Shown piece by piece: positions 6,960 through 30,012 of a DNA stretch of 64,000 nucleotides. The notes below the pieces were generated by a model that saw nothing but the letters and a program-made list of their open reading frames with translations, ran no database searches and was not told the origin of the DNA. A program made the translations under genes and the position numbers. Origin of the DNA: Gammaproteobacteria bacterium (GTDB taxonomy: Bacteria > Pseudomonadota > Gammaproteobacteria > Enterobacterales > Psychrobiaceae). The DNA is taken from assembly GCA_013214945.1 (NCBI GenBank), contig JABSRT010000003.1, positions 62,001-126,000 on the forward strand, given 5' to 3'. Position 1 is the first letter of the stretch; each line of letters opens with the position of its first letter.

Positions 6960-7310
6960 TCAATAATCGAAATTGGTGGTATATGAAAATAATTCATTGC
7001 CAGCAATCAATAAATCAATTTTTGTCAGGTTACTTTCAAGTTCAGCATGAGTTTCAAACAGTGCACCGACTGCTTCACCCAATTTTTCATTCACTTGTGC
7101 TGGTGTGCTTAAATCGGTTTGCCAGATGTTTTGCAATGTGATTTCGCTTGCTTCAGCACTAGGCTCAGCCCACAGCGACGTTAGGGTCCAACCTGTTTGC
7201 GCTGCAATTAAAGGAAAAATCTCGCTGCCTAATTGCTTAAACTCAGCTTCATCGCTAACTGGAATAGTGACTTGAGCAATAAGACATATATTTTTATTAT
7301 TTATTTTCAT
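6960..7310 (-). CDS. Small ABM/NIPSNAP-like dimeric alpha-beta barrel protein
   Basis: A 116-residue protein. The N-terminal beta strand (NICLIAQVTIPVSD), the helix with FKQLGSEIFPLIAAQTGW, and the second half (EITLQNIWQTD) fit the ferredoxin-like fold of antibiotic-biosynthesis-monooxygenase or NIPSNAP-type proteins. Assignment is by pattern only and no catalytic residue can be named. A good AGGAAAAATA ribosome binding site precedes the ATG. It lies 72 bp after tfuA and probably ends that operon. In such clusters these proteins may be small oxygenases or binding proteins; the role here is unknown. Confidence 0.5.
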   Translation of the reverse strand: MKINNKNICLIAQVTIPVSDEAEFKQLGSEIFPLIAAQTGWTLTSLWAEPSAEASEITLQNIWQTDLSTPAQVNEKLGEAVGALFETHAELESNLTKIDLLIAGNELFSYTTNFDY

Positions 7311-7382
7311 TATTTTTCCTGTTTTATGTTGATATTTTACAATTTTTTTCTTAACCGTCAGTATTTTAGCAATTACGCAGCA

Positions 7383-8717
7383 TTAAACCAACCGGTGTTG
7401 ATATTCTCTTAATACTGCCGCTTTAAACTCGTCGAGGCTATTAAACCCACTAAAATAGGCGTATGCGTTAATATCTGCTGGTACGCCCTGATTAAAGTAA
7501 CAATCAAAGAACCACTGCCACAATTCATTTTGGGTTAATCCCAAACTCTCAACCGTCGCATTAGGCTTAACTAAATCGTTTGTTCTACTGTTAAGCTTTT
7601 TTTGATAGTGATTAAAATCACCGTTTAGTTTAAGCAACTCGACAATTTCTTGTTCAACGTTGGGCTCGATACTTTCAATCCAGCCAAGTGCCGCCTGCTT
7701 TTCGACTAACGCGTCAAAATCGTCAAGACTAATGCTTTGAGCATCCAGCCATTGGCCTAATTTATCGAAATCAACTTGGTTTGCATTGATACAGCGCTGG
7801 CGTTTACTTAAATCAATAAGTGCTTGTTGTTTTAACTGCTGGGGGATCAACGCATGGTGTTTTTTAACCTCTCTTAACGCCGACTGTCTGGTGAGAGCTT
7901 GTTCTTTTAATGGCATGTACTGAGCGTTGAGCTTAAGTTGATTGACCAAATCATCAAAGTTAATGCTTAATTTTTGATTAAACTGCTTAGAATCGATGTC
8001 TCTAACCAGCATGTCCCACGCGTCGGTTGGGGTAAAAGTATATTCAACTTTTTTCGGCGCGAGTGATCCAAAATCGATATTTTTAGCCAGATGACTTAAC
8101 AACGCGATGGCGTCTCGTTGCTTAATATTGACCGGGGCAGTCTTAACATTTTCGGTCAACTGTTGAAGCTTTTTCTCATCTAAAATTAAAGCCGCTTGTG
8201 TTAGTAATTGCGCATAACTGCGCTTGGGATACCACAGCGACTTTATCTTTTTAATTAACGTTTGGCTTTCAAGCTCGCTAAGCAAGCCTGATTGCTGCGC
8301 CGCATCAAGGGTTGCCCGAATATTTACCATCGGCTCAGAAATCCCCTGATATCCTAATTCTTTGGGGGCATGCACCAACGCTACTTCATCATCGTCGTCT
8401 AATTTTCCCTGCTTGAAATCATGATAAACTTGACCAAAACCCTCCATTCCAAACACGTCAAGCTCAGCGGCTCGCAAAGCGCCCATGCTAGAACAACCAT
8501 AAACATGAATGCCTTGCGCCATCGCATACAGTATTTCTTTATGCCAAATAGCCGGAACTCGCTCAAAGTAACCATCGATAATCACGATAGCTTGCGGCGC
8601 GTCTAAGCAGGCTAAATAGACATCTCCTTGTTGTGCCGGTGGCAAATAGGTGGCATTAAGGTAGGTGGCTGCTTGCGCTTGCGAAATAGTCGGGCCGGTA
8701 AAAACAACAATACTCAT
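7383..8717 (-). CDS. TfuA-like protein, partner of YcaO
   Basis: The N-terminal half is a recognisable TfuA domain: MSIVVFTGPTIS, then a Val/Ile-rich strand (AIVIIDGYFERVPAIWHKEI), then the signature CSSMGALRAAEL and a GMEGFGQVY segment. TfuA proteins work with YcaO enzymes; the pair is known in trifolitoxin clusters and in backbone thioamide formation (for example McrA thioglycine), where TfuA is thought to help deliver sulfur. This copy has 444 residues. Its C-terminal ~230 residues are rich in Gln, Leu and charged residues and are not part of the minimal domain. Start chosen by GGAG 8 nt upstream. It overlaps ycaO by 4 bp, so translation is coupled. Confidence 0.85.
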   Translation of the reverse strand: MSIVVFTGPTISQAQAATYLNATYLPPAQQGDVYLACLDAPQAIVIIDGYFERVPAIWHKEILYAMAQGIHVYGCSSMGALRAAELDVFGMEGFGQVYHDFKQGKLDDDDEVALVHAPKELGYQGISEPMVNIRATLDAAQQSGLLSELESQTLIKKIKSLWYPKRSYAQLLTQAALILDEKKLQQLTENVKTAPVNIKQRDAIALLSHLAKNIDFGSLAPKKVEYTFTPTDAWDMLVRDIDSKQFNQKLSINFDDLVNQLKLNAQYMPLKEQALTRQSALREVKKHHALIPQQLKQQALIDLSKRQRCINANQVDFDKLGQWLDAQSISLDDFDALVEKQAALGWIESIEPNVEQEIVELLKLNGDFNHYQKKLNSRTNDLVKPNATVESLGLTQNELWQWFFDCYFNQGVPADINAYAYFSGFNSLDEFKAAVLREYQHRLV

Positions 8718-9970
8718 CTGCTGATCTCCTTGCTTAACTTGCGAGATAATTCAACCATTCTATGGCCTGCAATAAACCCCGGCATGTCATGAATGCCTTC
8801 AAGGCCCGGCACCACCACCCGTACTACCGCGATGCCAAATTCATCTTTGGTCAAGTCCACCACCGCAATTTGTGTTAAGCCCGCTTCAGCTAGCTTGGCG
8901 GTGATTAACGCAATGTCAGCGCTAAAGCTGTTATTGTCCCACGATTTAATGTTGGCATAATCAAGCATGGCATTAGCGCCATTGAGTTGATTTAGTTGAG
9001 TGTTTATTTCATTTTGAAAATCAATGTTTTGCTTTTCGAGATAGTCATTGGCACTGACATCGTCACGAGAGCCGGAAATAAGCGTGAGCCGAGTTTGAGC
9101 CGCTTCAGTTAATGCTCGCAATAAGGCGATAGATTTACACGGATGAGTCCCCGACCCCGCCGATGGATACAGCGTGCGTGAGCTGCTGTGTTGATCATCG
9201 CTAATCATGCAGTAAAACGTAGCAATGCCAAGATCGGATGTAATATCCCACACCCCAACGGCAATGCTAGCCGCTTTAAACTGCGCCAATATACCAAGGC
9301 AATGTTTATCGGTAATGCTCGACAAATCAACTTGGCGCTGGCCCATGTTGTTACCCAGTGCCCGTTCGGTATGCCACAAAGACATTGCATCGCGCTCTAT
9401 CACTTCAGATAAACCGTGACTAACGGCTTCTAAATAATTATTGCCAGAAGCAAGACCATTAGTGCTCATTAAAAAATAGCCACTGCCCGCGGGCAATGGC
9501 AATGAGAAGTTACAATGGACCATTTCATAAGGCACAAATAGCGCGCTGTGATTAATCAGATCTGTACTTTCAATCCATAAGATCGGCAGGTCGAGACTGA
9601 ACTCGCTAAATGAGGATTTTGCCAGCTGACTCACATCAACAACTTGATGCTTGGCTTTAAGTTGGTTGTAACTCGCTAAACGCAGTGGTAACTCAATATG
9701 TTCGCCATGATAAGTTTCTATCGCTTCCATTACGCCCGAAACTTTGGCTGAAATAAGATCTAAACCTTTACCTTGCGCAACAGAAACAGCGCAAGATTGC
9801 GGCCGACAAACGGTGACAACAGGTATGCCAATATGATCCAAGCCGGTGATGTTAGCAACGCGGGTAATGCCCATCGCTTGCATCATCGGGCTTATCTTGT
9901 TTAAGGTTTCTATTGGTGAACACTGGCGGTGTGAGCCTTGAAAGTGTTCTTTCTCAAGATTAGTATTCAT
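8714..9970 (-). CDS. YcaO-family ATP-dependent peptide backbone-modifying enzyme
   Basis: YcaO enzymes use ATP to activate peptide backbone amides, giving azolines, amidines or thioamides. The characteristic acidic/ATP-binding segments are present: SAKVSGVMEAIETYHGE, EAVSHGLSEVIERDA and RALTEAAQTR. The C terminus (RKLSKEISR) lacks the Pro-rich PxPxP tail of azoline-forming YcaOs, in keeping with a TfuA-associated, possibly thioamide-forming type. The start is placed at an internal Met (418 residues), because GGAAA lies 5 nt before it and a longer reading would run into the upstream gene. It follows the 318-residue gene by 52 bp and overlaps tfuA. The substrate is unknown. Confidence 0.9.
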   Translation of the reverse strand: MNTNLEKEHFQGSHRQCSPIETLNKISPMMQAMGITRVANITGLDHIGIPVVTVCRPQSCAVSVAQGKGLDLISAKVSGVMEAIETYHGEHIELPLRLASYNQLKAKHQVVDVSQLAKSSFSEFSLDLPILWIESTDLINHSALFVPYEMVHCNFSLPLPAGSGYFLMSTNGLASGNNYLEAVSHGLSEVIERDAMSLWHTERALGNNMGQRQVDLSSITDKHCLGILAQFKAASIAVGVWDITSDLGIATFYCMISDDQHSSSRTLYPSAGSGTHPCKSIALLRALTEAAQTRLTLISGSRDDVSANDYLEKQNIDFQNEINTQLNQLNGANAMLDYANIKSWDNNSFSADIALITAKLAEAGLTQIAVVDLTKDEFGIAVVRVVVPGLEGIHDMPGFIAGHRMVELSRKLSKEISR

Positions 9971-10022
9971 AGGTTTCCTATAAAAGCTCACCACAAACAA
10001 ACTTATGGTGAGCCAGATTAGA

Positions 10023-10979
10023 TTATTTAAGGAAACTTTGTAAGTTAGCCACCATGCAGACGGCGCCAACTAAACCGAGCTCTACATGCACATCTTTTGG
10101 GTTAACCGCACCGACCTGTACCCCTGAATCACGAAAGTATCGCGCCAGTGACATGCCGGTTAATGACTTAACCTTTTGATGATTAAATTCTAACTTCTCT
10201 TTACCTTCATCAGTAATGGTGCGATCGAATTGTTCTTGTTCCAATTCAAAATATTCACGTAATGAAAGCAATTCAACCGCATTTAGATCAATATCACTTG
10301 GCGAAGGTTCAAGATTATATTGTTCAAGCTTATCAAGCTGTTCAGCGCTCAAATAAGTAATTTGATAGGGATAAAACTTGTCCACGTCTCGCACCAACAA
10401 GGGGTTTTTCCATGACACGATGTAGAGATTTTCTTTACTTAAATCGGTTAATTGACTTACCTTCTCCGGTGGTACATGGCCGTCGAAAGGCTTATGAACC
10501 GGGTGTGGCAATAAGTCATCTTTTGTTACAACAACTTGCTCAATCGGCGTATCACGACCTGGGGTTGGAGCGTCATGGTTAAATTTAAACTTTGGCGCAT
10601 GTAATCGATTAAGTTGTAACAATCTTAAATCGAGTAAGTAACCAGGTTTAAGCATCGAGCGATCGATGCCCGGCGGATAATTAGCCGTATCGAGGTTCCA
10701 ATCTATGACTTTAGTTAACGCTGGGCCCGTTAGGTTTACCGGGTAGTGACCATTTTTAGTTTCAAAAAATTGATGATTATCGTCCTCACTGCTGTGCCAT
10801 TCTAATCTTAATGCTTGTTCCGATACTTGGTCGCCAGATGCTGTTACATCAGGCACATAATCATTATAATTAATTAAAGAAGCCCGCTGGCCTCCTTCTC
10901 TAATAATATATATATCTTGAGCTTTAAGCGTTAAATTGAAATTTTCATCGATATAAGATGAAGGCAGTTTGATTGACAT
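10023..10979 (-). CDS. Unrecognised 318-residue protein, possible YcaO/TfuA substrate
   Basis: I do not recognise this family. The protein is soluble-looking, acidic and Pro/Asp-rich, with no signal peptide or membrane segment. It has a long linker-like middle (HAPKFKFNHDAPTPGRDTPIE) and a C-terminal helical part ending in the small hydrophobic stretch LGLVGAVCMVANLQSFLK. The only Cys of the protein is in that tail. A good GGAAA site precedes the ATG. It sits between the kinase gene (20 bp) and ycaO (52 bp), so it is co-transcribed. A C-terminal Gly/Ala/Cys-rich tail next to YcaO/TfuA makes it a candidate large precursor or protein substrate, but it could equally be an accessory enzyme. Confidence 0.75.
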   Translation of the reverse strand: MSIKLPSSYIDENFNLTLKAQDIYIIREGGQRASLINYNDYVPDVTASGDQVSEQALRLEWHSSEDDNHQFFETKNGHYPVNLTGPALTKVIDWNLDTANYPPGIDRSMLKPGYLLDLRLLQLNRLHAPKFKFNHDAPTPGRDTPIEQVVVTKDDLLPHPVHKPFDGHVPPEKVSQLTDLSKENLYIVSWKNPLLVRDVDKFYPYQITYLSAEQLDKLEQYNLEPSPSDIDLNAVELLSLREYFELEQEQFDRTITDEGKEKLEFNHQKVKSLTGMSLARYFRDSGVQVGAVNPKDVHVELGLVGAVCMVANLQSFLK

Positions 10980-10999
10980 ATTATTTTCCTATTATATTT

Positions 11000-13900
11000 T
11001 TATAGATAACCTAACTGTTTCGCATTAAGCAATGCGTCAGTTAAGCACTTATTTATACGTAGAGTGTCCATATTGTCATCTTGATAAAAACTGTTTAAAT
11101 GGTCAGTTAGCACCTCCGGTAGTTTTTGCTGCTTTTCGTCCAGTAATATTGCAACGATTTGTTTTAGTCTGGGCATATGTTCCTTATATCCCCCGTTATT
11201 GTTAGCCGTGTGTAATAAATCGAGCTCTGTCAGCAACGACAGCCACTGCAACGGAAAAGGAAATTCGTCGGCCAAGGCATTCCAAATGCTGTTGCTTAAG
11301 CCAATTAGTCGTAACGACTCAAGAGCATTGTGTTGCTTATATTCAACCCATGCCAAATTGGCATTGGCAACCGCAACATAATCGTCCATGCCAGCGGTGG
11401 TCGATATTGCAAATGACTCGCGGGCATATTTTAATGCCTGATCTTTGTTTCCTAACCGGCGATAATTCATCGTGATATAGGTTAAGCAACGCGCTTTTAG
11501 GGTGATATCATTTTGTTGTTCTGCCAACACTAATGCATTAAGCAATTCTTTTTGTGCTTGCGGGCGATCGCCATAAAAATATAATGAAAAACCAAGCACA
11601 AATGTTGAGTAAGCCTGCAATGCGAGATCGCTGGTATTAAGTGCCGCCGTGCGGGCGTTTTGTGCTAATTCAACATCATCTTTTACTAGTGCAAATCGAC
11701 GTTGTCTAAATCGTAAATGCAGCACATCATCATAAAAGCGCGCTTGTTGCTCTGGGTTAGCTTTTTGTGAAACGACAGGTTCAATCTTTTCAATCAGTTC
11801 GGCCATCGCTGCGACATTGCCTTGCCAGTAATTAACATAAAGTTTGGCGCTTTGAATTTTTAGCCAACCATCCCACCAGTCATCATCTTTGTGCTGCTCA
11901 TCAATATTATTAAGCAGGTTGTCTGCGTGATTATATTCACCGAGCGCTTGTTGATGGTTATGGTGTGTTTCCCACGATTTGCCTATTTTCAAATGCAACA
12001 AAGTGTCTTTAATCGCTGAATCAGCTTGCTCACTTAATGCTTTTTTATAGCAAGCTCTGGCCTCGGGGTGTTGACCTTTTTTTATTAAATTATCAGCGAG
12101 TCCAATGTAAGATTGTTCGAATTTACTTTGTTTTAAGCTGTTATTGTCGGTTTGCAGTTCAAGCTGGCTAATTGATTGACGGTAATAACCTATCGACTGG
12201 TCAATAACAAATCGCTGTGACGCTTGATCACCCGCCTCAAGGTACCATTTACTCGCTTTATCAGGTCGGTTGGCCAACGCCCAATGCACAGCCGGTATAT
12301 TAGGAAAACGATTAGACTTGGCAATAAACTGGGTTTCTAACGTTTGCGCCAATTTTAAATGAGTCGATATCTTATTCGTTGGGGTAATGCTGTCATAAGC
12401 GACATCTCGAACTAATGCATGTTTGAAGATATAACTATCACCACTGACTTTACGTTGCAGATAAATGAGATCGGCTGCGATTAATTCACTGAGGTTATTT
12501 TGCAGCTGACTTTCACTTTGGTTCGAACCTGCGACCAAAAAGTCATAATCAAATTCACGACCAATCGCCGCCGCAAATTGTGCGGTTTCTTTGGCGTAAA
12601 CGATGGCATCAAGTTTTTGTTGCAGCGAATCCCTTAAACTGTGGGGTAACTGCGATTTTTTATCGGCATCAATAAAATCGATAACGCCGTTAACCTGATG
12701 GATTAATTGTTTTTGCTTTAGCATATTAACCAGCTCTTCAATAAAGAGCGGAATGCCGTCGCTGCGACCCACTAACATCTCGAGTAGCTGTTCGCTAATA
12801 TCTTGCTGGTCGAACAGCGCCTGGATAAAACGCTGGCTGTGAATATATTCGAGCTTGGTTAAGGCTATCGCAATAAAATCAACATCGGCTGTAAGATCTG
12901 AAATCGTCTGTCTTGAAGTACTAACACAAATGCTGTCCGACGCTTTAAATACTGCACAATCAACAAACTGACCAATAAATGCCATGCTCGTCTGATCGGC
13001 CCAGTGTAAGTCTTCAAAAATATACAAAGCAGCGAGACGCTCTGGCGTTTCTTGCAAGGTTAACAGGTTGAAAAGTATTTCAAATAATACTTGTTGTTGC
13101 TCGCTTGGCGCCAGATCAATATTTGATACATCATCGGATATCGGCAAGGTTAACCAAGAAAACAAAATAACCTTAGCCAGATTTTTTGCCTCGTCATTTT
13201 TAAAATAGCCCAGCTGGTTAATAACATGGGTTAGCTTGTCGGCAGCGGCTTGAAGTGTTAATTCATCGAGCGAAAATTTGTACTTCAATACATTTAATAT
13301 CGGGTAAAGCGCATTATTTTTATGCTCAGGCAAACACTGAGAGACATAATGACTATAGCCAGTGGTCTTTTTCCTAAATTCAAATAATAAGCGAGATTTA
13401 CCGATGCCCGCCTCACCAAATATATGCGCATGCTTAGGCGTTAAGTCACTGTCTTTTTGGCTTTGATTGGGTAATAAACTCAGTAACTGGGTTAGCTGCT
13501 CATCACGACCGAAAAAGCGCTTATCACTTTGCGCATTGCGTAAAAAGCCAAACGCTTCAACTTGGCGCTCTGCGGTTAATCTAAATAGCGATCTGTTTTG
13601 ACGGTCAGCACCAATAATTAACGATGATGAGGGTTCAAATTCCACATAAGTGTCGAGCATATTTTTCAATGCGTCGGTGCATAGGATCTCGTTTTGCGCG
13701 GCTTTTCGGGCCAGTACCATCGCAATGCTGGCGGTGTCTCCCTCAGGAGTGGCATCTGCATAGCAGGTAATTAAACCGGTATGCATGCCTAACTGCGCTT
13801 TGGCGATAATTCCCTGAGTATGCTGCAGCAACGAGTTATGTTGTTTTAGGTTACTGATAATATCCAACGCGGTACGTGCGCTTAAACGGGTATCGTGGTC

Positions 13901-15100
13901 AGTGGCGACCGGGTAACCAAAATAAAATAATAGCGTGTCACCCAACGTCCCAACATGAAATGCACCGTAACGAATCGCAATATCCATGCACTGATTAATA
14001 ATGTCTCGATGTAAAGCGTCCATCACTTCAAAGTCAACCAGCTGATTATTAACGCTCTCGACATTTATGCTAAGACATAAAGCGGTGATCTGCTTGCGCT
14101 CGGTTACACCGGTAAAACCAGCACTGCCCATATCTACTTGAGTCCGATCATACTCAAGACAATGATCGGTGTCGGCATGGGATTGGCGGGTCGTTGTAAT
14201 TTCACCGACTAAATTAGAAAAGTTTATTTTCTTTAATTCAGTGTAAATATCTTCGGCGGTGACCATGCGCTCGTGCGCTTTTTTGACTAAAACCCGACTC
14301 AGCAAAGCCGCAACCGGGTGTCCCGCTAACGCCGGCGGCAACGGCACACTCGACTGGCTTAATTGCTTGTGAAAAATCGACGCCAAGGTCGAACCAAAAA
14401 CAGCAGGCCGGCCAGTTAAGCATTCTAAAAAGACTAACGCCCACACATACAAGTCAGTTTTAGGGGTTGGTGGTTCGCCACGCAATTGCTCAGGGGCACT
14501 GTAAGACGGCGTGCCTAAGGTTTCTCGGGTTAACGTTAAGCTTTTATAATCGAATTGACGGGTTTGTTCATCCAAAGCCCCAATGCCAAAATCTAATACC
14601 TTGGCGTGGATTTTAGTGCCTGTTTTAGTCAGCATGATATTGTCAGGCTTGATATCGCGGTGGATCACTCCCTGACTGTGCGCATGCGCGAGTGCGTCGA
14701 GCACTTGAGACATAATGTCGCTGGTTTGAATGGCCGTTAATGGTCCATCAAGCGCTAGGGTATCTTTAAGGGTTAACCCTTCAACATATTCAAATACCGC
14801 ATAAAAATCACCTTGACGCGTTTGACCTTTATCGAGCAAATGCACAATATTAGGGTGGTTTAAGCGACTACACAATAACGTTTCCCGTTCGAAACGCTCG
14901 ACATAGCGATTGCTCTTGGCCAGATCAAATTCAGCGTTAAGCGTTAAAAATTTAATGGCGACGATTTGCGCTGTATTTATTTTTCTGGCGCGATAAACAC
15001 GGCCAAAACCGCCCTCACCTATTTTTTCAAGTAGGTCATAGTCAGCGATGTCAAAAAGATCAGTTATTGCATCATTACTGATTACTGAATGATTTGTCAT
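11000..15100 (-). CDS. Ser/Thr kinase - cyclase-like - AAA ATPase - TPR signalling protein
   Basis: A 1366-residue multidomain protein. Residues ~20-290 form an Hanks-type kinase: glycine loop IGEGGFGRV at 27-35, Lys50, HRDIKPDN with catalytic Asp149, then DFGIG. Residues ~330-490 resemble a class III nucleotide cyclase (ITALCLSINVES, GTLGDTLLFYFGYP). The first metal-binding Asp of that domain appears replaced in the LCLSINVE strand, so cyclase activity is doubtful. From ~540 comes an AAA/STAND-type ATPase with P-loop GEAGIGKS, then TPR-like helical repeats to the end. No membrane segment is seen, so it is probably cytoplasmic. It follows the FHA gene by 263 bp and precedes the 318-residue gene by 20 bp. 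Kinase and FHA genes side by side suggest a phospho-Thr relay. Confidence 0.9.
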   Translation of the reverse strand: MTNHSVISNDAITDLFDIADYDLLEKIGEGGFGRVYRARKINTAQIVAIKFLTLNAEFDLAKSNRYVERFERETLLCSRLNHPNIVHLLDKGQTRQGDFYAVFEYVEGLTLKDTLALDGPLTAIQTSDIMSQVLDALAHAHSQGVIHRDIKPDNIMLTKTGTKIHAKVLDFGIGALDEQTRQFDYKSLTLTRETLGTPSYSAPEQLRGEPPTPKTDLYVWALVFLECLTGRPAVFGSTLASIFHKQLSQSSVPLPPALAGHPVAALLSRVLVKKAHERMVTAEDIYTELKKINFSNLVGEITTTRQSHADTDHCLEYDRTQVDMGSAGFTGVTERKQITALCLSINVESVNNQLVDFEVMDALHRDIINQCMDIAIRYGAFHVGTLGDTLLFYFGYPVATDHDTRLSARTALDIISNLKQHNSLLQHTQGIIAKAQLGMHTGLITCYADATPEGDTASIAMVLARKAAQNEILCTDALKNMLDTYVEFEPSSSLIIGADRQNRSLFRLTAERQVEAFGFLRNAQSDKRFFGRDEQLTQLLSLLPNQSQKDSDLTPKHAHIFGEAGIGKSRLLFEFRKKTTGYSHYVSQCLPEHKNNALYPILNVLKYKFSLDELTLQAAADKLTHVINQLGYFKNDEAKNLAKVILFSWLTLPISDDVSNIDLAPSEQQQVLFEILFNLLTLQETPERLAALYIFEDLHWADQTSMAFIGQFVDCAVFKASDSICVSTSRQTISDLTADVDFIAIALTKLEYIHSQRFIQALFDQQDISEQLLEMLVGRSDGIPLFIEELVNMLKQKQLIHQVNGVIDFIDADKKSQLPHSLRDSLQQKLDAIVYAKETAQFAAAIGREFDYDFLVAGSNQSESQLQNNLSELIAADLIYLQRKVSGDSYIFKHALVRDVAYDSITPTNKISTHLKLAQTLETQFIAKSNRFPNIPAVHWALANRPDKASKWYLEAGDQASQRFVIDQSIGYYRQSISQLELQTDNNSLKQSKFEQSYIGLADNLIKKGQHPEARACYKKALSEQADSAIKDTLLHLKIGKSWETHHNHQQALGEYNHADNLLNNIDEQHKDDDWWDGWLKIQSAKLYVNYWQGNVAAMAELIEKIEPVVSQKANPEQQARFYDDVLHLRFRQRRFALVKDDVELAQNARTAALNTSDLALQAYSTFVLGFSLYFYGDRPQAQKELLNALVLAEQQNDITLKARCLTYITMNYRRLGNKDQALKYARESFAISTTAGMDDYVAVANANLAWVEYKQHNALESLRLIGLSNSIWNALADEFPFPLQWLSLLTELDLLHTANNNGGYKEHMPRLKQIVAILLDEKQQKLPEVLTDHLNSFYQDDNMDTLRINKCLTDALLNAKQLGYL

Positions 15101-15257: not shown

Positions 15258-15287
15258 GTAATACGTTGTTCAATAGAACCGTATTAC
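15258..15287. promoter_or_regulatory. Inverted repeat in the FHA-kinase intergenic gap
   Basis: GTAATACG … CGTATTAC are perfect 8-bp arms, with a further GTTC/GAAC pair inside around a 4-nt loop. It has no T-run. It lies between the FHA stop and kinase start and could be a protein-binding palindrome or an RNA hairpin that tunes kinase expression. The arm resembles one half-site (TGTAATAC) of the direct repeat found at four promoters of the cluster. Confidence 0.45.
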
Positions 15288-15363
15288 TATCTAAATGATA
15301 ATGGTTAACAAACACTAAAATCAACTAGTAATCAAAAAAAAAATCAATTACCTAGCTTATCAG

Positions 15364-16341: not shown

Positions 16342-16361
16342 TTTTTATTATCCTTAATTTC

Positions 16362-20344: not shown

Positions 20345-20439
20345 TTGGAGCCCCAAATTCAGTTAATATTTATCATCTGACTAATACCAAATGATTTGTT
20401 TAAGTAGATAACTCAAACTATAGTATTTAACGAATTTTA

Positions 20440-20460
20440 GGTATTACACCAATATTACAC
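20440..20460 (-). promoter_or_regulatory. Direct-repeat element TGTAAT-N5-TGTAAT, amidohydrolase promoter
   Basis: In gene direction it reads GTGTAATATTGGTGTAATACC: two TGTAAT half-sites 11 bp apart. A possible -10 box TATAGT lies at 20417-20422, 20 bp after the second half-site. The same arrangement occurs at 21477-21497, 24975-24995 and 25174-25194, so this looks like an activator site. Confidence 0.75.
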
Positions 20461-21365: not shown

Positions 21366-21476
21366 ACGAAAATCCTTTTTGTATTGTTTGTAAGTGATGA
21401 TATTTATATATTCATTAACGGCGTACCAACGCCAAAATCGAATATGCATCAATCTTATCTTCAAAAATTACAGAAA

Positions 21477-21497
21477 GGTATTACATCAATATTACAC
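21477..21497 (-). promoter_or_regulatory. Direct-repeat element TGTAAT-N5-TGTAAT, DUF1842 gene promoter
   Basis: In gene direction GTGTAATATTGATGTAATACC, nearly identical to the amidohydrolase site. A weak -10-like TAAGAT is at 21452-21457, 22 bp after the second half-site, the same spacing as at lodA. The 300-bp gap up to lodB holds nothing else I can name. Confidence 0.75.
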
Positions 21498-22789: not shown

Positions 22790-24913
22790 TTACAACAACT
22801 CATCCCGTGATCTTATTTTTCTTGGCGGTACATTGCCTTTAGCGGCGGCTAAGTCTTCTTTTTCTAGCTGCTTGATCTTGTCGTTAAACGATTGTTCTGA
22901 TTTGGTTACTTCATGCACGGTTGCATGTTCAAAGCGCACTAAAGATTCCATATGCAGCATTTGACGATAACTGGGATCATTGACTAAAAATCTTTCATTA
23001 ACTTCAGACTCAACCCAAAGCGTATCAATGACTGTTTTACCAAGCATTATTGGCGGAATAGTTTGCTTACTCACGATGCCGACTTTGTCCCAGTCGGTGA
23101 TCATGCCGAGTCTTGGGTTGGTACTGTCTTCGCGTAAAAAACGCAGCCAGTCTTGACGATAATCAAAGTGTTTTAGCCGTTGCAGATCCGGTAATCGGGT
23201 GTCTCTGATCCGATCTAACGACCGCTGACTCAAGACCTGATTTGGTACTCTGGCCGACCAATAACTTGGCGTTGGCAAGTAATAAGCAGGATCATAATCT
23301 TGCCCAGAACGACAGCTGCCCTCATCGGTTTGCCACGGCACGCCCATAAAGCGCGTTAACGTGCCCGGACCGCTCGCATTAAACATCGACTCTAGCGCGA
23401 CAGCTGGCGTTAACACTGGGCCATAAAAATCTTGCACTTGTACGCCTTCAGCCAAGATATTTAAGCGCATGGTGTCAAATGGATCTGCTATATCCCACAT
23501 CGAAATTCGGCGTAAAAACCACGTTAACTCAATGCCGGGATGAAATGGCCCACCCAAACATTCCAATAAGTTAGCTTTGGTTAACGCGTGCGGTTGGCTC
23601 GCAAGCTCAATCGCGTCTAGACCCGACACGGGTTCTGGTCGCTCTGCGCAAATGAACTCGCCCTTGGCCCAATTTTCAAGATGGCGATACTGAGTTTGGG
23701 TTAAACTGAGCCCCGATAACGGTGAGTTCTCATAATCGCCATAAGCGTCACCATAAAAAGGCGGTAACTGAGCCGCTTGCAGTTGTGTTTGCACCAATTG
23801 AACGGCCGCATCAAGCGTTTTAGAAATGGTGCTATTGAGTATGCTAGCCTTAGCGCCATATTGCTCTGGGGTGGTAATTGTTTCTATTTTTTCAATGCGT
23901 TGTAGCTGCGTTTCCTCAACTGGCAATCGAAATTGTTCAAACAGTGCATTTCGAAGTGGCGCATTTTCTTGATGTGAACTAGCGAGTCTGGCAAGCAATT
24001 CGGGTTCAGTGAAGTTAGCTGGCGCATTATCGCCAAACATCATGTAAAAGCCCGAATTGACCCCCTGATTTTCAACCAAGCTATTAAATATTGGGAAAAC
24101 ATCACGATAAAATTCCGTGCTTGGCGGTTGTTTGATCAGGTTGTTAGCATAGAAAAGATCGGTCACGACATCATACATGGTGACAATACCACGCATGCCC
24201 GGCGCAAAATTGGGCGGTGTAACGGCCACCATCGCAGGTTTAGCAGTATACTTTTTATTATTTACCGTAACAGTCGCTCGCACGGTGCCGTCACTAACAT
24301 CGTCGTGCCAGCCTTCGTTATTAGCAAAAGTAGTGGCTTGGCGACCATCAAAACTATTGGACTCACCTCGCCCGCCTAATACTATCAAACGCCCTTGCTG
24401 ATCGGTTTGCAATTCACCTAAATAGACATCTCTTTGGTAAGCCGTTCCCGCATAAAACTTGCCGCTATCAAATTGATATTCAGCTTTGTTTTTTTCATTG
24501 CAGCCCTCGATTGTTCGAGTGCCCGAGTCGATTAAAAGCTTTTTAGCACGCTCTGACAAGTTCGTCATTTTAGCATTTCTCAGCTGGCAGTCTTTAGACA
24601 ACTCGCCCATATCCATTGCATTATTAAACTGATAGTTAATCGATTTACGATTAGCTAAATGCACCTGCCATTCAATTTTCACATCCGGAGAATTAGTCAT
24701 TTCTTGAACAACTTCACCTTGAGCATTTAGGCCATACACCCTAAAACGCGCCGCCTGACGTTTGACCTTGCCAAAGTCATCTTTATATTCAAAGTTGGTC
24801 GGGATCTGCTGCTCTGGCGCTTCAGGACCAATATAAAATTCATCGACCGAGTTACCTACTCGGGCAATACCGATCGCAGGATAAATATAATAGTGAGTGA
24901 TCGTGTTATTCAT
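22790..24913 (-). CDS. LodA-like cysteine tryptophylquinone amino-acid oxidase
   Basis: LodA/GoxA enzymes oxidatively deaminate lysine (LodA) or glycine (GoxA), giving an aldehyde or keto product, ammonia and H2O2. The N terminus IYPAIGIARVGNS … FYIGPE is the family signature. By comparison with Marinomonas LodA, the cofactor would form between Cys452 (in ECLGGPFHPGIE) and Trp527 (in GVPWQTDEGSC). The start is placed at an internal Met with AAGG 7 nt upstream, giving 707 residues; the longer reading would run through the promoter. There is no signal peptide, and known LodA is exported without a classic one. It heads an operon with lodB behind a direct-repeat promoter. The amino acid oxidised cannot be read from sequence. 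Confidence 0.88.
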   Translation of the reverse strand: MNNTITHYYIYPAIGIARVGNSVDEFYIGPEAPEQQIPTNFEYKDDFGKVKRQAARFRVYGLNAQGEVVQEMTNSPDVKIEWQVHLANRKSINYQFNNAMDMGELSKDCQLRNAKMTNLSERAKKLLIDSGTRTIEGCNEKNKAEYQFDSGKFYAGTAYQRDVYLGELQTDQQGRLIVLGGRGESNSFDGRQATTFANNEGWHDDVSDGTVRATVTVNNKKYTAKPAMVAVTPPNFAPGMRGIVTMYDVVTDLFYANNLIKQPPSTEFYRDVFPIFNSLVENQGVNSGFYMMFGDNAPANFTEPELLARLASSHQENAPLRNALFEQFRLPVEETQLQRIEKIETITTPEQYGAKASILNSTISKTLDAAVQLVQTQLQAAQLPPFYGDAYGDYENSPLSGLSLTQTQYRHLENWAKGEFICAERPEPVSGLDAIELASQPHALTKANLLECLGGPFHPGIELTWFLRRISMWDIADPFDTMRLNILAEGVQVQDFYGPVLTPAVALESMFNASGPGTLTRFMGVPWQTDEGSCRSGQDYDPAYYLPTPSYWSARVPNQVLSQRSLDRIRDTRLPDLQRLKHFDYRQDWLRFLREDSTNPRLGMITDWDKVGIVSKQTIPPIMLGKTVIDTLWVESEVNERFLVNDPSYRQMLHMESLVRFEHATVHEVTKSEQSFNDKIKQLEKEDLAAAKGNVPPRKIRSRDELL

Positions 24914-24974
24914 AATATGCCTTGTGCTAAATGATAATCGAGTGGCGCAACTATAAAAAACAACCAACAGAAAA

Positions 24975-24995
24975 GGTATTACATCACTATTACAG
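24975..24995 (-). promoter_or_regulatory. Direct-repeat element TGTAAT-N5-TGTAAT, lodAB promoter
   Basis: In gene direction CTGTAATAGTGATGTAATACC. A good -10-like TATAGT at 24950-24955 lies 22 bp after the second half-site; there is no good -35, which suggests activation by the bound protein. About 60 bp upstream of the lodA start. Confidence 0.78.
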
Positions 24996-25173
24996 CAAGC
25001 ATCAAAACCCACAAAAAATAGACTTAACCACTTGATATTTATCTAAGATCAATTACACCAACCAGCAAACCCGCGTAAACTAACTGCTGGTTTTTTCAAC
25101 TAAATTTCACGTCATTCAACCAATCAATCAAATGACACCTGCATTTCAAATAGTTAATGCTAAAAGCTGCTCC

Positions 25174-25194
25174 GTGTAATGGCGCTGTAATATG
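25174..25194 (+). promoter_or_regulatory. Direct-repeat element, promoter of the oxidase-decarboxylase operon
   Basis: GTGTAATGGCGCTGTAATATG on the plus strand: the same two TGTAAT half-sites 11 bp apart, in gene direction. The central bases differ from the three minus-strand sites, so the half-sites rather than a recent copy are conserved. It is 164 bp upstream of the start codon. AT-rich -10 candidates follow at about 25206-25225. Confidence 0.68.
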
Positions 25195-25357
25195 TATTTA
25201 TCGCGATATGTTTAATACTTTTTATAGCCCGTTGGCAGTGTCTTTTTACTCTCAACAAGATTATTCGCTAAACACTCACTAACGTTACCCAACATCATTA
25301 TTAACATACTGATTTTTAGTTATTAAACCTAAAATTCATCTTATGGAGAAGAACTGT

Positions 25358-27319
25358 ATGTCTGACAATAAATATTTTAAATTGGCTGAACAATTACTTT
25401 TAGAAACACCAGCCCCAAAAAATGTAAACACAACGATCCCTAACCCGACCATAGAATTTTACGAAGATGTGCTGCGAGACGGCATTCCACAAACCGTGCA
25501 ACAACAAGCAGCAATTAAAGGTAAAAAAGTGGTGGTGGTCGGTGCGGGGATCGCTGGGTTAATTAGTGCAGGTTTGTTATCTGACGCTGGGGCCGATGTT
25601 AAATTGGTTGAGGCTAATACCCGAATAGGCGGTCGAGTAAAAACATTTACTAATCAACAAAAAAGTGTTGATCTTGAGCCGTCAGATCCAAACAACAAAC
25701 ATTTTCACCAAGACGGTTTATACGCCGAAGCGGGTGCTATGCGCATGCCGATGACTCATCAGTTACTAAAATACTTAAGCCATGAAAAGTTAGTGCTGCC
25801 TTATCGTACCTTTAAGCTGGTCGGTATTGATCCCAATAAACCACAAGACAGCCCTTCAGTGAAAACAGATCCGGCATGGATCAGTACCAATGGCAATCGA
25901 GTACAGAAAAATTCCTATTATAATTCTAGCCAGCAAAGCGATACCTTTGATGGTCGTTTAAAAGTTAATAACGGATTTGAGGTCACCGACACACGTACGG
26001 CATCATGCCTAGTCAATCTAGCCTTTGAGCCATTACGAGATATGATCGAAGTCGGTGACACTGTCACCAACAACGATGAGCGCCGTCAGCAGTATTTGGA
26101 AAAATGGGCCGACCTCATTGAAAAATTCGATAACTACTCGTTACAGCGTTATTTACGTGAAGAAGCCACTGTACCAACACTATCAGGTACTGGTGTGCAA
26201 GTGCCGTTAACCGAAGAGCAAATAGCCCTAATTGGTACCTTGGAAAATCTAACCTCCAGATTACCATTAGCACTGCTGCATAGTTTTCTTGGTCGGTTCG
26301 ATATTAGCCCGAACAATAGCTATTATGAATTTGTCGGTGGTAGCTGGCGTTTACCAGCGGCGATATATGAGCACTATAACGGTACCACCGACAAGTTAAA
26401 TCTGCATAGTGGACAACGCGTCATTGCGATTAAGCAGCATGATAATAAAGTCACTGCTATCTCAGTTGACGAGCGACAATCTAGTGATGCCTCGGCCTCC
26501 AATGAAGATCTGATTGCTGATGGTCAGCAACATACCGGTGATGCCTTAGTATTAACCATGCCCTTTTCAAGTTTACGCTTTGTTGATATTGCGCCACAAT
26601 TTAGTTTTGCTAAACGCCGTGCGATCACTGAATTGCATTATGATTCTGCAACCAAGGTGCTGCTTGATTTTGAACAACGTTGGTGGGAATTTGATCATGC
26701 TAAATGGCTCGAAGAAATTAACAAAGTATCTGATCCAGTCCAAAAACAAGCTTATTTGGATGAATTAACCACTTTACCGCCAACAAGCATTCAAGGTGGC
26801 GGCTCGATCAGCGATGGTCCATCTCGTTTTATCTATTATCCGTCGCATCCTAGTTACGAAAATGATTTGGCCGAACCTTATAATCCAGATGATCGCGGCG
26901 CAGAGCTCAGCGGTGGGGTAATTTTAGCCGCCTACACGTGGGCCGACGACGCTGTGCGCTGGGACGCGTTAAATAGCACAGAACGATTACGTTTTGCCTT
27001 GCATGAGTTATGTATTTTTCACGGAGAGCGGATCAAATTATTCTTTAATAATACTGGCACCACTCAAAGCTGGGCGCGCAACCCATATGCCTTTGGTGAA
27101 GCGGCTATCTTTACTCCCGGGCAAATGGTCAACTTGCACCCACATATCCCAACGCCGGAAGGTAACGTTTTCTTTGCTGGTGAGCATACGTCGCTTAAAC
27201 ATGCGTGGATTGAAGGCGCGATAGAGTCTGCTGTGCGGGTTAGCCTTGAAGTACATAGCGCGTTAGCGACCCAAACAACAGCTACAGCGACTACGAGCAA
27301 AAAGGAAGCGACGCTATGA
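25358..27319 (+). CDS. L-amino-acid oxidase-like flavin monoamine oxidase
   Basis: A 653-residue FAD amine oxidase. It has the Rossmann motif VVVVGAGIAGLISAGLLSDAG with the following acidic residue and GGRVKTF, the substrate-site segment AEAGAMRMP typical of L-amino-acid oxidases, and the C-terminal FAD motif FFAGEHTSLKHAWIEGAIES. Such enzymes convert L-amino acids to 2-oxo acids plus ammonia and H2O2. The second ATG is taken as start because GGAG lies 9 nt before it. It overlaps the decarboxylase gene by 4 bp (ATGA). No signal peptide. Divergent from lodAB, and both units carry the same regulatory element. Substrate unknown. Confidence 0.88.
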   Translation: MSDNKYFKLAEQLLLETPAPKNVNTTIPNPTIEFYEDVLRDGIPQTVQQQAAIKGKKVVVVGAGIAGLISAGLLSDAGADVKLVEANTRIGGRVKTFTNQQKSVDLEPSDPNNKHFHQDGLYAEAGAMRMPMTHQLLKYLSHEKLVLPYRTFKLVGIDPNKPQDSPSVKTDPAWISTNGNRVQKNSYYNSSQQSDTFDGRLKVNNGFEVTDTRTASCLVNLAFEPLRDMIEVGDTVTNNDERRQQYLEKWADLIEKFDNYSLQRYLREEATVPTLSGTGVQVPLTEEQIALIGTLENLTSRLPLALLHSFLGRFDISPNNSYYEFVGGSWRLPAAIYEHYNGTTDKLNLHSGQRVIAIKQHDNKVTAISVDERQSSDASASNEDLIADGQQHTGDALVLTMPFSSLRFVDIAPQFSFAKRRAITELHYDSATKVLLDFEQRWWEFDHAKWLEEINKVSDPVQKQAYLDELTTLPPTSIQGGGSISDGPSRFIYYPSHPSYENDLAEPYNPDDRGAELSGGVILAAYTWADDAVRWDALNSTERLRFALHELCIFHGERIKLFFNNTGTTQSWARNPYAFGEAAIFTPGQMVNLHPHIPTPEGNVFFAGEHTSLKHAWIEGAIESAVRVSLEVHSALATQTTATATTSKKEATL

Positions 27320-29145
27320 ACCAGATAACCGTCGCAAAATACCTCGCTATTCGTTTAAACGAGCAGCGAGTAGGCACCTTTTTTGGGGTGCCGGGCAATT
27401 ACTTAGGGCCTTGCATTAGCGAATTTGCACAGCACGGCATTCGATGGGTTGGCGGCACCAATGAAATGAATATTGGTTATGCCGCTGACGCGTATGCACG
27501 CCGTCATGGTTTTGCCGTCGTTGGCGTCACTTACGGTGTCGGGGCGTTAAGCATTATTAACCCGATTAGTGGCGCCTATGTTGAAGGCGTACCAATTTTG
27601 GTTATCAATGCCGCTCCCACCTATGCCCAGCAACTTAGCTTACGTGATATTAATTTATTAACCTCACATATGTCCGATAAACAAACCAGTAATTTAGACG
27701 CTTATCATGCGGTCACTGGGGTCGCGCTTAAGATTAATAATGCACGATTAGCGCCCGCGATTATTGATGCAGCTATTGCTGCCTGTTTAACGGAATCTAA
27801 ACCGGTTTATCTAGAAATTAACGAAAACGTCTTTAGTGAGCTTTGTGCCAGCCCCAAAGGTGAACTGTCAGCACAGGGTCGCCAGTTTAGTATCACTAAT
27901 GCCCAAGAAGCCGCAAAAGCCACCGCCGCCCTAATTAATGATCGGGTAAATTACCCCAAGGGGCCGGTATTGTGGGTTGGGCATGAAATAAGTCATTATG
28001 CGATTCAAGACAAGGTTTCGCAGCTGATCACAAAATATGAATTACCTTTTTGTAGCTCAGTGATGGGCAAAGGGGTTATCGCAGAGAGCTCTAGTTTCTT
28101 TAAAGGTGTTTATTCCGGCGCGTCTAGTCAGTTGCCGGTAAGTGACTTTTTTGATGATGAGCAACGATGCCGCATTGGTCTTGGCTCTTGGAGTACTTCC
28201 AAAAATGTTGGCGGAACCCGGGTGATGGGCGCTGACTGGGTTATGTCGATGAAACACAGTGTGACGGTTGGGTCGCAATATTTTCCGAATGTCGGACTGG
28301 CCGATTTTGTTGAGCAACTCGATATTGAATTGGCGAATAACTTAGCCCCACTGCCTGCAATAGTCGAAGCAGAAAATCATAGCTCACTGGCGTGGAAAGT
28401 TGATGAAGACAGAGGGTTTTGTTACGACAACATATTTTCTCGCTTAAACCAATGGTTATGGCAAAGCGAACAACAACCTGACACTATTTCGGCGGATGCA
28501 CCGGGTTTAGCAGCCAACCTAATATCTGATGCCGGTTTTTCTTTAATCGGCTCTCAAAATACCTATCAGCCGCAACCTAGTCGTTTTTATAGTCAGTCGA
28601 CTTGGTTGTCTATTGGTTATTCATTAGGTGCGGTCACAGGGTTGCAATATGCCATTAAAGACGCTGCTGTCACGACCAATGCGACTCACCCAGAATTTAC
28701 CCTTGTTTGCATTGGTGATGGTTCATTTCAAGAAACAGCGCAGGGCTTATCTGACTTAATCCGCAGCCAAACTAATGCCTTGGTGTTAGTCATGAATAAC
28801 GACAACTTTTATGGCATAGAGCAAATGTTGGTCGACGCCGAATATTATGCCCCGGGCAGCGACAACCCTGGCGATATTTACAATCATGTTCAACCATGGC
28901 AATACAGTAAATTGATCGAGGTGTTCCAACAAGGCAGTGGCCCAGTCATGATTAAAGGGCAAGACATTAGCTCGAACGATGCTTTTGCTAGTCTGTTAGA
29001 CGAGTTTTCAGCCAGCTTGCGACAAAACCCTGAGCAACCGCATACGTGGTTGGTGCAATGTATATTGCACCAAAAGGACTACCCGCGTGGGATGCAAAGC
29101 AAAGTAGATCAAGCGCAGCAAAAACGACAACGGCATCTAACATAG
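27316..29145 (+). CDS. Thiamine-diphosphate-dependent 2-oxoacid decarboxylase
   Basis: A 609-residue enzyme of the pyruvate/indolepyruvate decarboxylase group. N-terminal VGTFFGVPGNYL and GGTNEMNIGYAADAYAR contain the conserved Glu that activates the cofactor. The C-terminal domain has the GDGSFQETAQ … MNNDNFYGIE motif that binds Mg-thiamine diphosphate. These enzymes convert 2-oxo acids to aldehydes plus CO2. Translational overlap with the amino-acid oxidase suggests a two-step path: amino acid to 2-oxo acid to aldehyde. It is longer than the usual ~550 residues. A terminator follows at 29176-29208. Confidence 0.88.
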   Translation: MNQITVAKYLAIRLNEQRVGTFFGVPGNYLGPCISEFAQHGIRWVGGTNEMNIGYAADAYARRHGFAVVGVTYGVGALSIINPISGAYVEGVPILVINAAPTYAQQLSLRDINLLTSHMSDKQTSNLDAYHAVTGVALKINNARLAPAIIDAAIAACLTESKPVYLEINENVFSELCASPKGELSAQGRQFSITNAQEAAKATAALINDRVNYPKGPVLWVGHEISHYAIQDKVSQLITKYELPFCSSVMGKGVIAESSSFFKGVYSGASSQLPVSDFFDDEQRCRIGLGSWSTSKNVGGTRVMGADWVMSMKHSVTVGSQYFPNVGLADFVEQLDIELANNLAPLPAIVEAENHSSLAWKVDEDRGFCYDNIFSRLNQWLWQSEQQPDTISADAPGLAANLISDAGFSLIGSQNTYQPQPSRFYSQSTWLSIGYSLGAVTGLQYAIKDAAVTTNATHPEFTLVCIGDGSFQETAQGLSDLIRSQTNALVLVMNNDNFYGIEQMLVDAEYYAPGSDNPGDIYNHVQPWQYSKLIEVFQQGSGPVMIKGQDISSNDAFASLLDEFSASLRQNPEQPHTWLVQCILHQKDYPRGMQSKVDQAQQKRQRHLT

Positions 29146-29175: not shown

Positions 29176-29208
29176 CAAACCAGGTATTTAACCATGCCTG
29201 GTTTTTTT
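29176..29208 (+). terminator. Terminator of the oxidase-decarboxylase operon
   Basis: AACCAGG/CCTGGTT stem with a 12-nt loop, followed by seven T within the sequence GGTTTTTTT. Placed 30 bp after the decarboxylase stop. Confidence 0.85.
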
Positions 29209-29244
29209 AAGTGTTGTTATAACGCCTTTCTGTTAGCGCTCAAG

Positions 29245-30012
29245 TTAGAACTTGCCATTTTCATTGTTCCATTCACTGCGTGGTGGAATGGTTTCACGCG
29301 TATCCCAATGCTCGACAATTTTGCCATTCGCGAGCCGATATAAATCGTAAAATGACGTATCACGCTTATCGACAGAGCCCTCGCATACCGACAGCACAAA
29401 ATTACCTTGAGCCAATACTCGGTGGCGCTTTTTGTATTCAATGCTAACGCCTTGGTCATGACTCTGAACGGTCAGAGCAGCGCGCAATGCTGGCAAGCCA
29501 TCGGCCACTCGAGCATTGTGCTCGGTGTAAGAGTTTGCACAAACAAAATCCGCCAGCCGATCAATTTGACCATTGATTAGCACGTCAGCGACAAATGCTT
29601 GAATAACTCCCCTGTTGATTTCAGTTTGTTCAAGATCACAGACATTAACTTCGCCATCTACCATGCTATGTCCCGACGAGTTTGGCCCTTGGCGTGATTG
29701 AATATTGTCCCAGTGCTCAACAGTTTGCTCACCTTCAAATCGAAACACTTCAAACCCAATTTTCGAGCTAGCAAAATCATATTCGGTATGTCCGAACACG
29801 TAATCACCATCAGAAAAAATACGCACGATATTGACCTTAGGCGAGCTTTTAGCGATCCGTTTAAAAAGCGCCGCCAACCCTTCACCGCCTTCGTGAGTTA
29901 GCGGATTGTGCTGAATATATTTGTTCGGATTAACGACGGCAACAGACGCGGGATCGCCTGTTTCAATTCCTTTTAATAACGTACAGATTTGCGCTTGGCG
30001 TTTTGAGGTCAT
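29245..30012 (-). CDS. Tandem SnoaL-like (NTF2-fold) protein
   Basis: A 255-residue protein made of two similar SnoaL-like halves. The first has YIQHNPLTHEGGEGLAALF and VEHWDNIQSR; the second has YTEHNARVADGLPALRAAL and IVEHWDTRETIPP. The repeated HN … EHWD pattern is typical of SnoaL-like proteins, a fold used by polyketide cyclases and small hydrolases or isomerases. It is convergent with the oxidase-decarboxylase operon and lacks the direct-repeat promoter, so its link to the cluster is only positional. No substrate can be named. Confidence 0.8.
   Translation of the reverse strand: MTSKRQAQICTLLKGIETGDPASVAVVNPNKYIQHNPLTHEGGEGLAALFKRIAKSSPKVNIVRIFSDGDYVFGHTEYDFASSKIGFEVFRFEGEQTVEHWDNIQSRQGPNSSGHSMVDGEVNVCDLEQTEINRGVIQAFVADVLINGQIDRLADFVCANSYTEHNARVADGLPALRAALTVQSHDQGVSIEYKKRHRVLAQGNFVLSVCEGSVDKRDTSFYDLYRLANGKIVEHWDTRETIPPRSEWNNENGKF

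Follow-up and report, generated by a model that had tools for sequence, protein, structure and literature searches.

A kinase-FHA cassette with YcaO and TfuA genes beside oxidase promoters that share a direct repeat: a probable regulon in a gammaproteobacterial genome

Why should a large Ser/Thr kinase, an FHA-domain protein, the peptide-backbone chemistry of YcaO and TfuA and several oxidases lie together in one bacterial gene block? The question is raised by positions 6960 to 30012 of a 64,000-nt stretch of Psychrobiaceae DNA (the window; assembly GCA_013214945.1, contig JABSRT010000003.1, positions 62,001 to 126,000), where Pfam and NCBIfam searches found in place all the genes that a first-pass annotation had named. 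The gene group is best read as two layers: a cassette of genes for the kinase, the 318-aa protein orph318, YcaO, TfuA and the FHA protein, and four gene sets with a promoter signal in common. We consider it likely that this kinase-FHA cassette with YcaO and TfuA, which stands beside four of the five promoters assigned to it, acts from the kinase through the FHA protein and a direct repeat on a regulon of oxidases.

The signal consists of the direct repeat TGTAATA-N4-TGTAATA (that is, TGTAAT-N5-TGTAAT) and a −10-like hexamer, which begins 22 nt downstream of the second half-site. Element 1 (TGTAATATTGGTGTAATA, 20442..20459, minus strand) lies ahead of the genes for an amidohydrolase and a BBE-type oxidase, with the hexamer TAGTTT at 20415..20420 (minus strand; coordinates set by hand, TATAGT 2 nt nearer the repeat being an alternative). 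Element 2 (TGTAATATTGATGTAATA, 21479..21496, minus strand, −10 TAAGAT) precedes a DUF1842 gene, element 3 (TGTAATAGTGATGTAATA, 24977..24994, minus strand, −10 TATAGT) the LodAB genes, and element 4 (TGTAATGGCGCTGTAATA, 25175..25192, plus strand, −10 AATACT) the genes for an amino-acid oxidase (AAO) and a decarboxylase. Three of these copies are exact and the AAO copy has one mismatch in the 14-base pattern, the offset of the hexamer being identical in all, so that the regulatory element proposed in the first-pass annotation for four units was borne out. In the whole 4.7-Mb genome the exact pattern occurred four times, three of them in this cluster; the fourth copy, on another contig, starts 217 nt ahead of a gene for a Collar-domain (tail-collar) protein. 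Scoring a hexamer at the 22-nt position with A at position 2 and T at position 6, we found it in 5/5 own-genome copies (Fisher P = 2e-5), against a background of 19/190 one-mismatch matches at wrong gaps. When up to two mismatches were allowed, 30 of 80 own-genome matches had loci and, beyond the five, 4/25 carried the hexamer, near the 10% background.

The same geometry was found around related kinases. A scan of a genome collection with 11 aligned kinases gave at least 527 candidates, of which the best 80 yielded 77 loci (1,573,314 bp, flanks of up to 10 kb included), a sample that over-represents near relatives. TGTAAT-N4-TGTAAT matched exactly 41 times in 34 of these 77 loci, with some overlap (as in locus L128); the other gaps from 0 to 11 gave 0 or 1 exact match each, and the reversed control gave 0 at gap 4 and 0 to 4 at the others. 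Hosts of the N4 copies include Pseudoalteromonas, Moritella, Psychromonas, Photobacterium, Marinomonas, Shewanella, SAR324, Variovorax and Pseudomonas. The element has so far been seen in Pseudomonadota, SAR324 and a Desulfatitalea locus, and no exact N4 copy was found in the Bacteroidota kinase loci. In L123, L128 and L130 exact copies stand directly ahead of the FHA gene. The fixed −10 hexamer accompanied 29/41 kinase-locus copies (Fisher P = 4e-15 versus background, related sequences being counted as independent here as in the other P values). It was also present in 24/41 copies around sites of genomes G627 and G243 (stretches around 27 of the 33 sites of the former and 12 of the 17 of the latter), or in 22/39 once two copies common to both sets (L236, L245) were removed (P = 1e-10 or 1e-9). 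This arrangement of repeat and −10 matches that of an activator positioned immediately upstream of, and in contact with, the −35 region. We also observed, in Shewanella (L128:18580-18615), overlapping tandem copies whose four half-sites recur every 10 nt, immediately ahead of the FHA gene, and, in two Photobacterium loci (L105:19174, L122:19160), a sole exact copy after the FHA gene and before a small open reading frame (ORF) of no known family (93 aa in L122).

The number of copies in a genome favours the FHA protein as the putative reader of the repeat. Whole-genome counts at N4/N5 showed a strong excess over the reversed pattern in 6 of 12 genomes (33 vs 0, 36 vs 4, 24 vs 3, 18 vs 3, 17 vs 1 and 21 vs 3). 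In a sample of 247 genomes of the order, the eight with the kinase averaged 12.6 copies (reversed 3.6) versus 2.1 (reversed 1.5) in the other 239 (P = 1e-6). Within genus g12, four genomes with the kinase have 8, 17, 11 and 16 copies, and 14 without it have 1 to 11; genus g2 was a misfit with the kinase, nine kinase-negative genomes having 5 to 14 copies. The FHA protein was sought in 80 of the 247 genomes, namely all sampled members of five groups and eight picked for many copies, and was found in 14: the eight kinase carriers and the kinase-negative G001, G027, G125, G169, G170 and G193. Among the eight picked for many copies, the regulator was found only in G170, which also belongs to one of the five groups. 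Mean copy number was 11.2 in the 14 genomes with the FHA protein versus 3.8 in the 66 without it (P = 8.8e-8), a difference reached in 0 of 100,000 within-group permutations.

These counts bear on whether the repeat is instead a box for PhoB or another OmpR-family response regulator, answering to phosphate or a two-component signal, with the kinase and FHA genes as mere neighbours. The form of the site invites this comparison: the VicR consensus TGTWAHA-N4-TGTWAHA is the same in form as the window element, and E. coli PhoB sites are direct repeats of the same form, several with TGTAAT (available parts of PMC4168254 and PMC10294691; the comparison with WalR/VicR and PhoB boxes is one of form only). 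One G627 copy even precedes a gene for an OmpR-type response regulator. Nevertheless, the period in the kinase loci is 10 rather than 11, these loci belong to other bacteria, and copy number follows the FHA protein both across and within groups. The −10 hexamer starts 22 nt after the second half-site, whereas in the E. coli phoA promoter it lies about 10 nt away, and Pfam recognised no phosphate gene among 20 first downstream genes. We therefore regard a response-regulator box as quite unlikely.

Which genes does the element serve elsewhere? In G627 and G243, 37 of 39 chosen sites fall outside ORFs of at least 100 aa. For 20 of these sites the first ORF downstream was searched with Pfam, which returned DUF1842 twice, the FHA regulator, Amino_oxidase, PixA, Pvc16_N, CBAH, SHMT, GGDEF, a response regulator and other families, with no family at 0.01 for five of the ORFs; the FHA gene itself is preceded by a copy with a −10 in both genomes. 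DUF1842 genes gave seven matches in 5 of 16 kinase-carrying genomes, our own included, and six of the seven have an upstream copy in the right direction with 0 or 1 mismatch (four exact), all six with the −10. Among LodA genes of kinase-carrying genomes, with our own left out, 7/12 have such a copy upstream (−10 at 22 in five, at 21 in two) compared to 0/11 in genomes without the kinase (one-sided P = 0.003; the 11 are nine class-sample loci plus L088 and L089, L280 being a partial match below the family cut-off). In Marinomonas G616 a homologous decarboxylase (64%) and AAO (42%) occur together on another contig, and a one-mismatch copy with a −10 lies 145 nt ahead of the decarboxylase. Collar homologues were found near the kinase in 10/77 loci, all Pseudoalteromonas, with one further, weak match in L162. 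Side observations include an element ahead of a Pvc16_N gene in G243 (L258), a PixA gene (Pfam) that follows a copy in the same genome (L254), and a PixA/AidA-like protein (by eye) about 2 kb from LodA in G616 (L190:1070-1591); Pvc16_N belongs to contractile tail-like particles. One copy with exact half-sites, ahead of a phenylalanine hydroxylase-like gene (by eye; G000:C22), was set aside for want of the −10.

By contrast, the view of one physical cluster, which the first-pass annotation had put forward, was not supported by the comparison. When the window proteins were sought in the 77 kinase loci by tblastn at 1e-5, the BBE oxidase, amidohydrolase, DUF1842, AAO, decarboxylase and SnoaL-like proteins had no homologue in any of them, and LodA was matched in 3 and LodB in 4. 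Loci L132, L133 and L136 have LodAB genes no more than 10 kb from the kinase, and in G243 the distance is about 14 kb; the oxidase genes of relatives are thus usually distant from the kinase, as in a regulon rather than one cluster. Such scatter had been named as the result that would count against a single system; the genes do scatter, but DUF1842, LodA and amine-oxidase genes elsewhere keep the same kind of element. A further explanation is that separate genes for amino-acid use and defence were joined by transfer, each set bringing its element without joint meaning. The scattered components agree with it, as does the lack of any match to kinase, LodA or YcaO in eight other genomes of the genus (at 1e-100, 1e-60 and 1e-40); since DUF1842 and LodA genes retain both element and −10 in several genera, we think it very improbable.

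Several observations weigh against control of the repeat by the FHA protein. The genes for the window's own kinase, YcaO, TfuA and FHA protein have no copy at up to two mismatches, and the proposed control would therefore run from the regulator to the oxidases and not to all units alike. What stands of the 'single system' of the first-pass annotation is a probable regulon of the kinase-FHA cassette, not one cluster with all units under like control. In the window genome the N4/N5 count shows a small excess (7 vs 4 reversed, including one further exact copy with no assigned position), and at up to two mismatches there is no clear one (80 vs 68 reversed), so only near-exact copies are informative; the window spacing is N5 and that of relatives N4. 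The genome-wide excess is weak or not clear in the other six of the 12 genomes, and small in the cassette carriers G616 (7 vs 4) and G615 (2 vs 1). No exact N4 copy is present in 43/77 kinase loci. In Pseudoalteromonas an exact copy in the gap before the kinase is oriented away from it, and in Marinomonas L132 both exact copies are oriented away from FHA and LodA, the LodA-facing copy having one mismatch. Many copies occur without an FHA match in G087 (14), G157 (13), G164 (11) and G144 (11), G193 has the FHA protein and no excess (6 vs 8 reversed), and the FHA matches of G001, G027 and G169 are each broken into two pieces. Upstream copies are also found at many unrelated genes, among them those for a response regulator, GGDEF and CBAH, and related sequences are not independent, although the P values treat them so. 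Finally, the C-terminal domain of the FHA protein had no significant OmpR-type match in a PDB profile search or in Pfam, and hhalign against seven OmpR-type domains gave a probability of 0.3.

The FHA regulator (15364..16341, minus strand; FHA Pfam 1.8e-14) gave an AlphaFold model with a mean confidence (pLDDT) of 89.9 from 35 sequences, in which an FHA domain and a middle beta domain are followed by a winged-helix-like C-terminal domain of strands, three helices and a hairpin, an order that we take to be that of the OmpR-type fold. From this modelled topology we infer that the protein binds DNA. FHA-containing chains were the top Foldseek matches among those listed (50 of 1141). EmbR of Mycobacterium tuberculosis is reportedly a regulator under Ser/Thr kinase control that has both an FHA and a DNA-binding domain. 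Its match to the model (2ff4, E = 2.3e-6) covers about 97 columns, no more than an FHA domain in length, and the two differ in that the FHA domain is N-terminal here and C-terminal in EmbR (available part of PMC10936776), the window model has no helical activation domain and the DNA-binding part is not detectably related by sequence. Sites of the Streptomyces antibiotic regulatory protein (SARP)/AfsR type are likewise direct repeats one helical turn apart at a fixed distance to the −10; they end 8 bp from it rather than 22, according to the same source (PMC10936776, in part), and the AAA and TPR parts are on the kinase here, not on the regulator.

How might the proposed regulon work? The kinase, whose AAA and TPR parts look like those of STAND (signal transduction ATPases with numerous domains) proteins, would sense a cue and control the FHA protein, probably via a phosphothreonine bound by the FHA domain; this step is suggested by the pairing of the genes and by what FHA domains do, namely bind phosphothreonine. 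The C-terminal domain would then sit as a side-by-side pair on TGTAAT-N5-TGTAAT (N4 in relatives) and the bound protein, touching the −35 region, would recruit RNA polymerase to the −10 in the manner of a class II activator. The predicted output comprises the amidohydrolase with the BBE oxidase, DUF1842, LodAB, the AAO with the decarboxylase and the distant tail-collar protein, a set rich in putative H2O2-making oxidases that would most likely serve competition.

The cassette itself is conserved beyond the window. Kinase and FHA genes are paired in Proteobacteria and Bacteroidota loci and, per 77 loci, matches numbered 77 for the kinase, 46 for YcaO, 44 for FHA (at least 250 aa in 43), 6 for orph318 (L104, L105, L111, L122, L132 and L142), 5 for TfuA and 2 for the 116-aa protein encoded downstream of TfuA (6960..7310, minus strand; no Pfam match above cut-off, no NCBIfam match). 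Neither orph318 nor the 116-aa protein was named in the first-pass annotation, and we count both as members of the cassette. The five loci with TfuA also have YcaO at 46-56%. The full core of kinase, orph318, YcaO, TfuA and FHA is present in five loci plus one ended by the contig edge, a third Marinomonas contig (L111) that stops in a second orph318 copy ahead of any YcaO. Photobacterium proteolyticum and P. alginatilyticum share the order kinase, orph318 (47%), YcaO (55-56%), TfuA, 116-aa protein and FHA; the same core occurs in Pseudoalteromonas sp. SMS1, where the FHA match is a fragment, and in two Marinomonas. In one of these two, Marinomonas rhodophyticola (L142:9986-14139, 15260-17648), the kinase and YcaO genes are broken over frames, those for orph318 and FHA being open, and glyoxalase-like and protease-like genes follow orph318 in two Marinomonas loci (L132:15133-16868, L111:15071-16703; Pfam Glyoxalase and Peptidase_S8 in L132). 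In the order sample, which includes the window genome, the kinase was matched in 8 genomes (1e-100), LodA in 4 (1e-60) and this YcaO in 2 (1e-40). The only other YcaO match, in G031 (L092:10000-19800), has TfuA beside it together with ThiF/MoaD-like, nitroreductase-like and ABC-transporter genes, and by eye resembles an ordinary thioamide peptide cluster.

What the cassette makes is suggested by its family assignments. The kinase (11000..15100, minus strand; 1366 aa with kinase, cyclase-like, AAA_16 and TPR parts) passes the cut-off of TIGR03903, the 'TOMM system kinase/cyclase fusion protein' of thiazole/oxazole-modified microcin (TOMM) systems (749.2 vs 705.75 bits, profile 2-924 of 1267); by eye its HRD and DFG motifs are intact, and its cyclase-like part is without what we take to be the first metal-binding Asp. 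YcaO (8714..10069, minus strand; Pfam 2.2e-79; start likely at the ATG near 9970, by eye) and TfuA (7383..8717, minus strand; Pfam 7.6e-47) have the McrA thioamidation pair as their best NCBIfam match, both under its cut-offs (YcaO 257.2 vs 365 bits for TIGR03266; TfuA 225.6 vs 235.2 for NF033432, McrA-glycine thioamidation TfuA). YcaO is also below the TOMM cyclodehydratase cut-off (TIGR03604, 125.5 vs 219.25 bits). The pair would introduce a thioamide into the backbone of some protein or peptide, perhaps of orph318 (10023..10979, minus strand; no Pfam or NCBIfam match). Because a C-terminal QxGxxNPxD...C...N stretch is conserved, orph318 is our guess at a candidate substrate. For this protein a PDB profile search returned nothing better than E 0.32, a scan of genome contigs with orph318 alone gave 28 pattern matches and no relative, and the AlphaFold model (mean pLDDT 34.1, 7 sequences) was of no use.

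Should the locus then be seen as a cluster for a ribosomally synthesized and post-translationally modified peptide (RiPP), in which YcaO-TfuA and an unseen precursor give a thioamidated peptide and the oxidases are tailoring enzymes? The YcaO and TfuA genes are adjacent, which is the mark of thioamidated RiPP clusters (available part of PMC8120280), and by eye some other kinase loci carry YcaO proteins with NHLP- or Nif11-like precursors. The TOMM clusters of Burkholderia include a large Ser/Thr kinase of the same TIGR03903 family (Haft et al. 2010; PMC2887384, in part), and YcaO accompanies 46/77 of the kinases; here, on the other hand, YcaO is paired with TfuA and orph318. A small-ORF list of 11 gaps showed no convincing precursor, TOMM or other, inside the range, none of its short reading frames there having a good ribosome site; a 71-aa ORF lies just beyond the range, and a precursor may be encoded at a distance. 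The oxidase sets have separate promoters and, apart from LodA in L132, none of them occurs near the other cassettes (up to 10 kb). In relatives, LodA and DUF1842 genes that carry the element are also found outside kinase loci. A RiPP cluster with tailoring oxidases thus appears unlikely.

Turning to the output of the proposed regulon, two to three H2O2 producers are predicted in the range from their sequence families. The LodA/GoxA-like oxidase (22790..25012, minus strand; LodA_N 5.6e-76, LodA_C 1.5e-31) stands beside a LodB/GoxB-like flavoprotein (21665..22786, minus strand), a maturase by family and below curated cut-offs, as in Marinomonas lodAB and Pseudoalteromonas luteoviolacea GoxA. It differs from these in being below both curated cut-offs, nearer to GoxA (407.9 bits, cut-off 750) than to LodA (182.5, cut-off 600). 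Its Trp motif PWQTD..SC aligns, the Trp presumably being the cofactor-forming residue, and the Cys position of the cysteine tryptophylquinone is ambiguous in pairwise alignment. The −10 of element 3 falls inside the longer ORF, so that the ATG near 24913 is a likelier LodA start than 25012; for the same reason the DUF1842 protein (20886..21464, minus strand; Pfam 4.8e-20) more likely starts at the ATG near 21365. Element 1 is followed by the YtcJ-like amidohydrolase (18407..20356, minus strand; Amidohydro_3 1.4e-56) and then the BBE-type FAD oxidase (16568..18364, minus strand; FAD_binding_4 1.7e-25, BBE 1.7e-5). On the plus strand are the AAO, a flavin L-amino-acid oxidase (LAAO) of the L-glutamate oxidase/LAAO family (25343..27319; Amino_oxidase 3.7e-44; best PDB sequence matches L-glutamate oxidases, 8jpw 7.7e-118), and a thiamine diphosphate-dependent 2-oxoacid decarboxylase (27316..29145), whose best NCBIfam match is indolepyruvate decarboxylase, below the cut-off of that family (194.9 bits, cut-off 946). 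The Pl-LAAO operon of Pseudoalteromonas luteoviolacea also joins a flavin amino-acid oxidase and an indolepyruvate decarboxylase (PMC6316408, in part), but no Spondin_N or two-component genes adjoin the window AAO, which had no match at 1e-40 in three P. luteoviolacea genomes.

The block is bordered by rimP-nusA-infB genes on one side, with a rimP leader RNA at 6296-6488 (RF01770, 48.2 bits) as its left border, and by rsuA on the other. The last gene of the range encodes a SnoaL-like protein (29245..30012, minus strand); no element was found upstream of it and its membership in the group is not supported. Between it and rsuA lies the 71-aa ORF, with a good ribosome site (30167-30382, minus strand), taken as outside the group.

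We found no published description of this regulator or regulon in the open-licence literature, nor one that combines YcaO, an FHA domain and a kinase, in agreement with the first-pass view that the gene combination is not known as a described system. Control of lodA has been attributed to the sensor kinase PpoS (available parts of PMC4417212 and PMC4376890); a transposon screen in Pseudoalteromonas that addressed the control of LAAO mentions neither FHA nor serine or threonine in the available part of its main text (PMC4376890). In Chromobacterium, DUF1842 genes are listed as dependent on quorum sensing, and some adjoin a gene for a SPASM peptide maturase (PMC12114271, in part). A bolder proposal, which we hold to be decidedly improbable, is a wide code in which STAND-type kinases and FHA proteins read TGTAAT-N4/5-TGTAAT promoters, and a YcaO-TfuA thioamide product is the kinase-sensed cue or checkpoint that gates peroxide warfare; if true, quinone and flavin amino-acid oxidases, DUF1842, collar and PixA-like proteins would form its shared arsenal. 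The proposed regulon of the kinase-FHA cassette offers a testable answer both to how antimicrobial amino-acid oxidases of marine bacteria are controlled beyond PpoS and to what large kinases do beside YcaO genes. The promoter rule of direct repeat, 22 nt and −10, if true, would make such regulons readable from sequence in many genera and give DUF1842 and tail-collar proteins a physiological context.

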